From NCBI GenBank assembly GCA_001023575.1, contig CP011489.1, positions 930,001 through 994,000 of the forward strand: a stretch of 64,000 bases of DNA, read 5' to 3'. The DNA is from Actinobacteria bacterium IMCC26256. Lineage in GTDB: Bacteria > Actinomycetota > Acidimicrobiia > IMCC26256. A model generated the notes under the pieces. That model worked only from the letters and a program-made list of their open reading frames with translations. It did not search any database and was not told where the DNA came from. Position numbers and translations under genes: made by a program. Shown here piece after piece: positions 37,680 through 48,285 of the stretch; position 1 is the stretch's first letter, and every line of letters begins with the position of its first letter.

Positions 37680-37727
37680 GAGCCACGACCACTTGTCCTC
37701 GTATTAGTAGTTGTCCCACCCTTGTTT

Positions 37728-37748
37728 TATAATCGAACATATGTTCGA
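37728..37748 (+). promoter_or_regulatory. LexA (SOS) box spanning the start codon of a leaderless gene
   Basis: TCGAACATATGTTCGA (37733-37748) is a perfect 16-bp palindrome and an exact match to the mycobacterial SOS consensus TCGAAC-N4-GTTCGA. A perfect TATAAT -10 (37728-37733) touches its left end. Seven bases later is the ATG at 37741, so transcription should start at the start codon, in the middle of the LexA site. No Shine-Dalgarno sequence is present. Confidence 0.8.
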
Positions 37749-38997
37749 CCAACTGGATCAACTCACCACAGAGCTCGAGGCCTGCTTTGCCTCCATGGAG
37801 GTTGACTGCTTCGACGGTGTTCGGGCTGCGCGATTGGTGAGCTCCGGGGAGCGAGTGCGCCGCCTTGGGGATGCGATACGAACAATCGGTGTTGGTCAGG
37901 TCGAGCGCACCAATGGCTGGAAAGGCCAGGGCGCTAAGAGTATTTCAGAGTGGCTAGCTACCGAGACTGACTGTGCTCACTATGAGGCCCAGTCTGTAGT
38001 GGTGCTTGCTAATCAGTTGCATCATTTACCTGTTACCCAGGCCGCTCTGCGCTCTGGTGAACTCTCTGGCACACAGGCTGTAGAGGTAGCACGCGGTGCG
38101 ATCGTTGCACCTAATACTGAGACACAGCTCTTGAATCTCGCTAAGCATGTGACGGTGCGCGACTTACGCGATGCAACCAATCGTGTCGTTGCAGCTGCCA
38201 CGGATGAGGGAGAGCGACACAGGCAGGTACACAAGAGTCGATCCTTAAAATGGTGGGTTGGCGAGGACGGCGCTTGCAATCTTAAAGGGCGCATGACTGT
38301 TGCGAATGGAGCGTTAGTTAAGGCTGCTCTCGCACCGTTAGAGGACTCGATTTTCAAACAGGCACGTAAGACTGGTGCACATGAGAGACCAGAGGCCTAC
38401 GCCGCCGACGCTCTAATGATGCTCTGCGAAAAAGCGAGCGCCTCGGATTCAGGGGCAGGGGCGAGTGCAACGAAGACGACTCGCTCTAACGCGGTAATGC
38501 ACATTCGCATCGACATTGACGCTCTCAAACGTGGGCATACTGAGCATGGCGAGATCTGCGAGATCGCTGGCGTTGGGCCGATACCTGTCGCTACTGCAAC
38601 CGAGTATTTGGGCGAGGCATTCCTAAAACTTCTCGTAATCGACGGCACAGACATCAGGACAATCGCTCACATGGGGCGCGCAATACCGGCAAAGGTCCGT
38701 ACAGCCGTTGAGGAGCGTGACCCGGTCTGCCAGGTACCAGCATGCGATATGACGATCGGCCTCGAGATAGATCACATCAAACCCTTCGCTGAGGGCGGCC
38801 CTGCCAGCTTGGAGAACCTTGTACGACTCTGTAAACGACATCACATTCAAAAAACGCACGATGGATACCGACTCATCAAGATTGAACCCCAGAGGCTCGA
38901 ACCGAAGAATACGGAAGTATCAGCCGATGGCGTGCGAGTAGATAGAAGCGATACAGCCCCAACATGGTCCTGGCGCGGGCCACCGGATAGTGGCTAG
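37741..38997 (+). CDS. DUF222/13E12-type protein with HNH endonuclease domain, SOS-controlled
   Basis: A 418-residue protein. The N-terminal 300 residues are DUF222-like (VERTNGWKGQGAKSISEWLATET, LRDATNRV), and the C-terminal HNH motif is CQVPACDMTIGLEIDHIKPFAEGG... LENLVRLCKRHH, with the zinc-binding CxxxxC and catalytic DH. This is the 13E12-repeat family, found in many copies in Actinobacteria. Some 13E12 members in M. tuberculosis are known to be under LexA control, and the perfect SOS box over the ATG agrees. A TTG at 37711 would extend it by ten residues but is not needed. Its role in DNA damage is unknown. Confidence 0.9.
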   Translation: MFDQLDQLTTELEACFASMEVDCFDGVRAARLVSSGERVRRLGDAIRTIGVGQVERTNGWKGQGAKSISEWLATETDCAHYEAQSVVVLANQLHHLPVTQAALRSGELSGTQAVEVARGAIVAPNTETQLLNLAKHVTVRDLRDATNRVVAAATDEGERHRQVHKSRSLKWWVGEDGACNLKGRMTVANGALVKAALAPLEDSIFKQARKTGAHERPEAYAADALMMLCEKASASDSGAGASATKTTRSNAVMHIRIDIDALKRGHTEHGEICEIAGVGPIPVATATEYLGEAFLKLLVIDGTDIRTIAHMGRAIPAKVRTAVEERDPVCQVPACDMTIGLEIDHIKPFAEGGPASLENLVRLCKRHHIQKTHDGYRLIKIEPQRLEPKNTEVSADGVRVDRSDTAPTWSWRGPPDSG

Positions 38998-46998: not shown

Positions 46999-48285
46999 GT
47001 GAGGGATGAGCCAACTTTTCTGCATCTTGATCTAGATGCATTCTTCGCATCGGTAGAACAACGAGATGATCCAACACTGCGCGGGCGCCCTGTAATTGTG
47101 GGTGGGACGGGAGGTCGTGGCGTTGTCGCTGCTGCATCCTATGAAGCGAGGGAGTTTGGAGTTAGAAGCGCAATGCCGACTATCCAGGCAGAGCGACTCT
47201 GTCCAAATGGCGTCTACTTGCCGCCGCGCTTTGACGCATATCAGAAGGCAAGTCGAGCAGTTATGAAGATTATGTCGAGCGTCACTTCGTTAGTAGAGCC
47301 GCTCTCCCTAGATGAGGCATTCTTAGATGTTGCAGGGGCGATGCGGAGATTCAGAGACCCTCACGCAATTGCCGAATTCATGCGCTCAAGTATTCAACGA
47401 GATGTCGGACTCACAGCATCCGTTGGCGGTGCTACTACAAAAATGCTTGCAAAGATCGCTAGCGACCTTGCCAAACCGGATGGCGTTCTTATAGTTAAAC
47501 CCGGCGATGAGTTGAAGGTCCTTCATCCGCTGCCGGTAAATCGTTTGTGGGGGGTTGGCCCTGCGACGAGGGAGAGGCTTGATCGCTTTGGAGTAAAGAC
47601 AATTGGGGATCTCTCGAGGATCCCTGAGGCAACACTTGTCGGAGCCCTAGGTGCAGCGAGTGGAAAGCACCTTCATGCTCTCTCTTGGAATAGAGATGAG
47701 CGAGGCATACGGCCAGATCAAGAGACAAAGTCTGTGAGTCATGAAGAGACGTTCTCGGAGGACAAGACTGATCGCATTGAACTTCAGCGAGAGCTTGTAC
47801 GCATGACTGAGCGAGTCGGTGCTCGTCTACGGAGTGCCGGCCTTGCGGGGCGCACGATTCAGGTAAAGGTGAAGTACCACGACTTCAGGCAGGTCACACG
47901 CTCAGCAACTCTTGATCACCTCACCGACCTAGCCGGTGAGATTGGCCCGGTCGCCCGCAACCTCCTCAGCGGCCTTGAGATCGCGGGGGGAGTGCGCCTC
48001 CTTGGAGTCTCAGTTACCGGGCTCTCATCCCAGGGCGAGCGCGAGGAGCAGTTGAGTTTTGACTCTGGGGCGGATCTAGGCAATCGCGAGGCTCGAAGGG
48101 CGCTCGAGCTAGCTGTGGATGCCGTGCGCGAAAAATTCGGCGATGACTCCCTCGGCTCAGGTGCCGTAATCGACGATGGGCGAGTGAGAGCAGACAGAAA
48201 GGGTTCGCTCTACGGGCCTCTTGCGTCTGGCGAGCAGGATCGAGGCCAAGATGCTCCCAGGGGGCGAGAGGGAGACCCGAGTTAA
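46999..48285 (+). CDS. dinB: DNA polymerase IV (Y family)
   Basis: A 428-residue translesion DNA polymerase. The catalytic metal ligands are in FLHLDLDAFFASVEQ and in LSLDEAFLD. PVIVGGTGGRGVVAAASYEARE is the finger domain, NRLWGVGPATRERL the helix-hairpin-helix of the thumb, and KTVSHEETF-like VSHEETFSED begins the little-finger domain. EEQLSFDSG near the C-terminus resembles a beta-clamp-binding motif. The start is a GTG at 46999 without a clear ribosome binding site. No SOS box is visible upstream, unlike the HNH gene at 37741. Probably co-transcribed with the Nudix gene. Confidence 0.94.
   Translation: MRDEPTFLHLDLDAFFASVEQRDDPTLRGRPVIVGGTGGRGVVAAASYEAREFGVRSAMPTIQAERLCPNGVYLPPRFDAYQKASRAVMKIMSSVTSLVEPLSLDEAFLDVAGAMRRFRDPHAIAEFMRSSIQRDVGLTASVGGATTKMLAKIASDLAKPDGVLIVKPGDELKVLHPLPVNRLWGVGPATRERLDRFGVKTIGDLSRIPEATLVGALGAASGKHLHALSWNRDERGIRPDQETKSVSHEETFSEDKTDRIELQRELVRMTERVGARLRSAGLAGRTIQVKVKYHDFRQVTRSATLDHLTDLAGEIGPVARNLLSGLEIAGGVRLLGVSVTGLSSQGEREEQLSFDSGADLGNREARRALELAVDAVREKFGDDSLGSGAVIDDGRVRADRKGSLYGPLASGEQDRGQDAPRGREGDPS

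Follow-up and report, generated by a model that had tools for sequence, protein, structure and literature searches.

A candidate PafBC-type promoter and a LexA-type box superposed on the start codons of a thirty-copy DUF222-HNH gene family

The DUF222-HNH locus and its start site

The window analysed here is a 64-kb stretch of DNA covering positions 930001-994000 of a single-contig 2.46-Mb actinobacterial genome. Within it, one DUF222-HNH gene and the sequence around its start comprise the following features, numbered from the first base of the window:

37712-37733, + strand: candidate PafBC (RecA-NDp) type promoter, whole motif, TGTCCC-N10-TATAAT (by sequence match)
37728-37733, + strand: -10 hexamer TATAAT (from the sequence), whose last T (37733) is common to the SOS box
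37733-37748, no strand: putative LexA operator (SOS box) TCGAACATATGTTCGA, a perfect 16-bp palindrome, identical in 30/30 copies
37741-37743, + strand: start codon ATG and presumed leaderless transcription start (ORF geometry and the 30-copy protein alignment)
37741-38997, + strand: DUF222-HNH gene, 418 aa, one of 30 copies (PF02720, PF01844)
38761-38859, + strand: HNH nuclease domain (PF01844, 28.5 bits, cut-off 21.4)

Positions 37728-37748 contain TATAAT, CGAACAT and ATG in direct succession, and the ATG begins exactly at the symmetry centre of TCGAACATATGTTCGA. A sequence-only reading of the window had described a TATAAT followed by seven bases and an ATG, with a perfect 16-bp palindrome centred on that codon; both elements are exact, the former at 37728-37743 and the latter at 37733-37748 with the ATG at 37741. 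The same reading held that DinB in this window has no box, and the DinB gene (46999-48285) indeed lacks one. Both CGAACNNNNGTTCG and TGTC[ACG][CG]-N10-TANNNT occur once in the 64 kb, each time at the DUF222-HNH gene. The PafBC-type element, the -10 hexamer, the LexA operator and the start codon are packed into 37 bases. Seven bases separate the -10 from the ATG in all copies of the family, a distance that leaves no room there for a ribosome-binding site.

The identity proposed for the gene was upheld by both of its domains: PF02720 (DUF222) spans residues 38-327 with 52.1 bits and PF01844 (HNH) residues 341-373 with 28.5 bits, each above its Pfam cut-off. Across 41 actinobacterial homologues, Cys330, Cys335, Asp344, His345, Asn359 and Cys364 are invariant or nearly so. 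An AlphaFold model of the window protein comprises a helical domain and the HNH domain (pLDDT 81). Foldseek searches with this model returned no match below E 0.001, and because the matches obtained were only weak (PDB entries with ParB/Noc-like helices or McrA-type HNH, together with phage HNH proteins), we drew no function from structure. The sole PADLOC match was marginal, a type II restriction enzyme aligned to the HNH part at E 0.015. The gene probably encodes a DNA nuclease whose synthesis is induced by damage.

The thirty-copy family and conservation of its promoter

The perfect box occurs 30 times in the 2.46-Mb genome, where random sequence would give ∼0.0006 and the reversed control gave 0. 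Every occurrence (30/30) has the start codon of a DUF222-HNH gene at its centre, a coincidence well beyond chance. A protein search with the window gene returned exactly 30 places in the genome, each alignment running from residue 1 at the box ATG; the ATG-centred box, which the sequence-only reading had left as a question for the other DUF222-HNH copies, is thus present in all 30. The family consists of 28 intact copies, one with an internal TAG and one reduced to a 44-residue remnant. In a transcript without a leader the operator would be read as codons, so the N-terminus would be fixed as Met-Phe-Asp/Glu; in line with the earlier claim of an operator-forced Met-Phe-Asp start, all copies in the genome encode Met-Phe-Asp or Met-Phe-Glu. 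A decayed relic of the gene's 5' end at genome position 446138 carries a mutated box (TCGAAGATATGTTCAA) and no TGTC block, and we regard it as a natural control in which the promoter would have decayed after gene loss.

The family accounts for 30 of the 39 CGAACNNNNGTTCG sites genome-wide. The genome encodes a single LexA, whose probable start is preceded by two boxes at distances of ∼80 and ∼110 bp. Further boxes lie at ruvC (TAGGATCGAACCCATGTTCGA, also ATG-centred, with a -10 of TAGGAT and without TGTC), radA, dnaE2, the gene of a DnaQ-like exonuclease and a possible imuA ORF, names that were assigned from N-terminal sequences, not by database search. At radA, TGTCAC-N10-TACGCT is followed by six bases and the ATG, and the LexA box spans the first codons. 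The mycobacterial LexA motif is this same box, TCGAAC-N4-GTTCGA (PMC4181829). Judged by its motif, the palindrome at the DUF222-HNH genes is a LexA-type box, as had been claimed from the window alone, and the encoded LexA and the boxes upstream of lexA agree with that assignment. In the locus at genome positions 723304-727073, one DUF222-HNH copy lies between the SOS-boxed possible imuA ORF and a dnaE2-like gene, in surroundings that look like a mutasome cassette.

Upstream of the -10, TGTC[A/C]CACC is found in 29/29 alignable copies with TGTC exactly 16 bases ahead of TANNNT, most of the 30 TGTC blocks being of common ancestry and therefore not independent counts. The published PafBC motif consists of TGTCGG, TGTCAG or TGTCAC, then N10 and TA-N3-T (PMC8151990). 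The form here is TGTCAC in 22/29 copies and TGTCCC in 7/29, the latter including the window copy, which differs by one base from the published variants. Among 28 ATG-centred boxes from other genomes, found without requiring TGTC, eight have that tetranucleotide at offset 16, and no other single offset accounts for more than one. The genome also encodes PafB and PafC as a pair of WYL proteins (1194337-1199957) beside pafA and the proteasome genes. They belong to the Pup-proteasome locus of the genome, prcBA-pafA-pafBC-tatAC, in which we take the neighbours of pafBC to be PafA, PrcA, PrcB, TatA and TatC. A second adjacent pair of WYL-domain proteins is encoded at 2135025-2136919.

The sequences flanking 19 copies correspond to those around 22 copies at the same places in two sister genomes, which indicates that most copies stand at old, shared sites; current mobility of the element is not supported, given this occupation of the same chromosomal sites. 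In 22 syntenic orthologue pairs, the only runs around the start with 22/22 identity were the TGTC block (positions -21 to -13), the TA dinucleotide in the -10 hexamer and all 16 bases of the box; the relatives were found via the box, so that its own conservation is biased and that of the TGTC block and the TA is free of this bias. Upstream flanking positions were mostly identical in 10-18 of the 22 pairs, and conservation ended above -21. A canonical -35 at 17 bp (TTGTAG or TTGTAA in several copies) was discarded as the main driver, since it is not conserved between orthologues.

The proteins are under purifying selection, and strongly so, given a dN/dS of 0.08-0.20 between orthologues; values for paralogues are similar. 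Some loci have an orthologue that shows less similarity than a different copy does (e.g. 74% vs 79%), which fits gene conversion or replacement as known for REP13E12 (PMC13061034). A third genome of the same genus contains no boxes and no DUF222, and its coding flanks, at 71-81% identity, are too divergent for sites to be compared.

Proposed control by two damage sensors and competing explanations

We consider it probable (about 0.75) that these genes are transcribed from a leaderless promoter which PafBC would activate and LexA would block over the start codon, so that both damage sensors must agree. The sequence-only reading was incomplete in this respect, having overlooked the PafBC-type element, which would add a second damage input to a promoter otherwise controlled by repression only. 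Transcription by RNA polymerase carrying the housekeeping sigma factor would begin with the A of the start codon; as long as the DNA is undamaged, LexA would lie over this start site and PafBC would be inactive. RecA filaments on single-stranded DNA trigger LexA cleavage. As single-stranded DNA accumulates, such filaments would bring about the cleavage of LexA while PafBC bound to single-stranded DNA would activate the polymerase, and all copies would come on together, only if both sensors fire. Because the LexA and PafBC inputs both read single-stranded DNA, the promoter should act as an AND gate.

PafBC is activated by single-stranded DNA and acts by sigma adaptation at a -26 motif (PMC11804915). 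In Mycobacterium tuberculosis, five HNH genes are on only with damage (mitomycin C) and depend on RecA (PMC8151990); the AND gate would predict this dependence, and LexA alone would give it equally. With basal sigma activity, LexA alone could suffice for control, and the AND logic is what we infer from the arrangement of the two sites.

Control by LexA without any part for PafBC, the TGTC block being a variant -35 or a spacer feature, is in our view unlikely. It would accord with the perfect box in every copy, with the departure of the window's TGTCCC from the published PafBC variants, with the ATG-centred, TGTC-free box at ruvC of the same genome, and with prophage genes that carry TTGCCC-N17-TACTAT together with a box. 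However, TGTC is fixed at the published PafBC spacing here as well as in unrelated genera, orthologues share it without change where the usual -35 region varies, and pafBC is encoded in the genome, all of which argue against control by LexA alone.

Two other explanations concern the box itself and the position of the transcript's 5' end. The presence of one and the same 16-bp site at all thirty members of a nuclease family, along with loci whose gene is less like its orthologue than like other copies and so suggests gene replacement, could mean that the palindrome serves chiefly as a site which the DUF222-HNH protein itself recognises or recombines, for example of a homing type by which the copies are kept alike, instead of as a LexA operator. 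We regard this as very improbable, because the motif also lies upstream of lexA and at ruvC, radA and dnaE2 and matches the known actinobacterial LexA box, because the shared chromosomal sites in two sister genomes give no sign of current movement, and because the dN/dS range argues for a selected function. It is hardly to be expected, either, that the transcript begins further upstream with a leader and that the overlap of box and start is an artefact of the chosen gene start. An in-frame TTG at 37711 could lengthen the ORF, but this codon lies upstream of the -10, within the PafBC element; moreover, conservation between orthologues ends above -21, protein alignments of all 30 copies start at the box ATG, and the 7-base spacing recurs in unrelated genes.

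If control by both PafBC and LexA applies, two actinobacterial damage-response systems would be joined in one minimal promoter, and the operator of a leaderless gene would serve in three ways, as repressor site, as transcription start and as codons 1-3. A more speculative extension, which we consider rather unlikely, is that the ∼30 dispersed nuclease genes form a coincidence-gated programme under both sensors of single-stranded DNA (RecA/LexA and PafBC), for instance for deliberate fragmentation or recombination after severe damage; they would make up most of the SOS regulon and might also soak up LexA.

Known systems and occurrence in other genomes

Several components of this arrangement are already known: 13E12 genes under LexA, promoters of the PafBC type, genes that carry sites for both regulators, and SOS genes without a leader. 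The LexA regulon of M. tuberculosis has the same box, TCGAAC-N4-GTTCGA, and includes 13E12 (DUF222-HNH) genes, ten such HNH genes being named along with it; its refined motif is MKWMTCGAAMRYWTGTTCGA, with WTG at the centre (PMC4181829); in contrast, the present family has 30 copies in a 2.46-Mb genome, each with an identical box on its ATG. REP13E12 of M. tuberculosis likewise comprises multi-copy DUF222-HNH genes with frequent gene conversion (PMC13061034), whereas the family here is from another lineage and has about twice the copies. The layout of PafBC/RecA-NDp promoters, TGTC[R][G/C]-N10-TA-N3-T, is matched by the 22 TGTCAC copies of the family and to within one base by the seven TGTCCC copies, the window copy among them; as in those systems, PafBC is encoded beside the proteasome genes. 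Dual PafBC and LexA sites have been described, e.g. at recA (PMC8223512); the M. smegmatis recA gene receives the two inputs through separate promoters, P1 and P2 (PMC11804915), whereas in the present family a single promoter, its operator lying over the start codon, would take both. The lexA gene of M. tuberculosis is similar as a leaderless SOS gene whose transcription and translation starts coincide (PMC2897130), but the portion of that account considered here does not place its operator on the start codon. In the literature covered, which for the M. tuberculosis LexA regulon excludes its two primary accounts (Davis 2002 and Smollett 2012), we found neither the superposition on the start codon in that regulon nor the 37-base superposition as a whole, its repetition at 30 genes or its recurrence across the phylum.

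Of 296 genomes sampled from the phylum, 27, belonging to 21 genera, contain TANNNTCGAACNNATGTTCGA; control matches numbered 0. The composite TGTC-N12-TANNNTCGAACNNATGTTCGA is present in at least 109 stretches of the collection, where we estimate ∼0.5 by chance in random sequence. Genera among the matches listed include Mycobacterium, Mycolicibacterium, Nocardia, Nocardioides, Amycolatopsis and Pseudonocardia, along with Acidimicrobiia and others. DUF222 was detected in 66 of the 85 ORFs scanned among the composite matches listed. The bases that follow TGTC were left free in the search and, among the matches listed, are G/A in 100/110 and then G/C in 92/110, in agreement with the PafBC consensus. 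All 110 composite proteins among the matches listed begin with MFD or MFE, a start that the search pattern itself forces. As an exact, searchable signature, TGTC-N12-TANNNTCGAACNNATGTTCGA would predict doubly controlled genes across the phylum; by indicating the conditions under which these nucleases ought to be produced, it also makes the function of the large, uncharacterised DUF222-HNH family testable.

When boxes in the phylum sample were chosen only by TCGAACNNATGTTCGA, seven of the ten TANNNT hits stood at a spacing of 7, and other spacings occurred once each. Selection by protein sequence only gave DUF222 genes at 30 other loci; 15 of these had, near the 5' end, a box with no more than one mismatch, and in just two was the start codon at the box centre; several had an earlier core ATG (TCGAACATGNGTTCGA). 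From these proportions (15/30 vs 2/30), SOS control of the DUF222 family would be common and exact centring one of few registers.

UvrD-like helicase genes of several actinobacterial genera also start at an ATG-centred box preceded at a distance of seven bases by TANNNT, and they lack TGTC where a PafBC element would have it (loci L093, L095, L096, L098, L099, L103 and L105; position 1500 of the oriented locus). Metagenome records titled Bifidobacterium breve (L140, L166 and L191) contain family-like or other DUF222-type genes with the composite; these titles are probably wrong.

Searches of viral contigs returned 101 matches, many of them without an ORF and probably due to chance. A recurrent 81-residue gene on such contigs has TTGCCC-N17-TACTAT fused to an ATG box (L323, L325-L327, L329 and others), apparently a LexA-only version of the promoter with a normal -35. 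Of six prophage-type ORFs (L357 at 8796, L373 at 10564, L383 at 8450, L392 at 1637, L399 at 12532 and L163 at 6402), several carry the arrangement TGTC-N12-TANNNT with the box on the ATG, and mobile elements may thus read the same two damage signals. One of these ORFs, by sequence most likely that of L163, gave the Peptidase_M78 (ImmA/IrrE-like) match among the 85 ORFs scanned.
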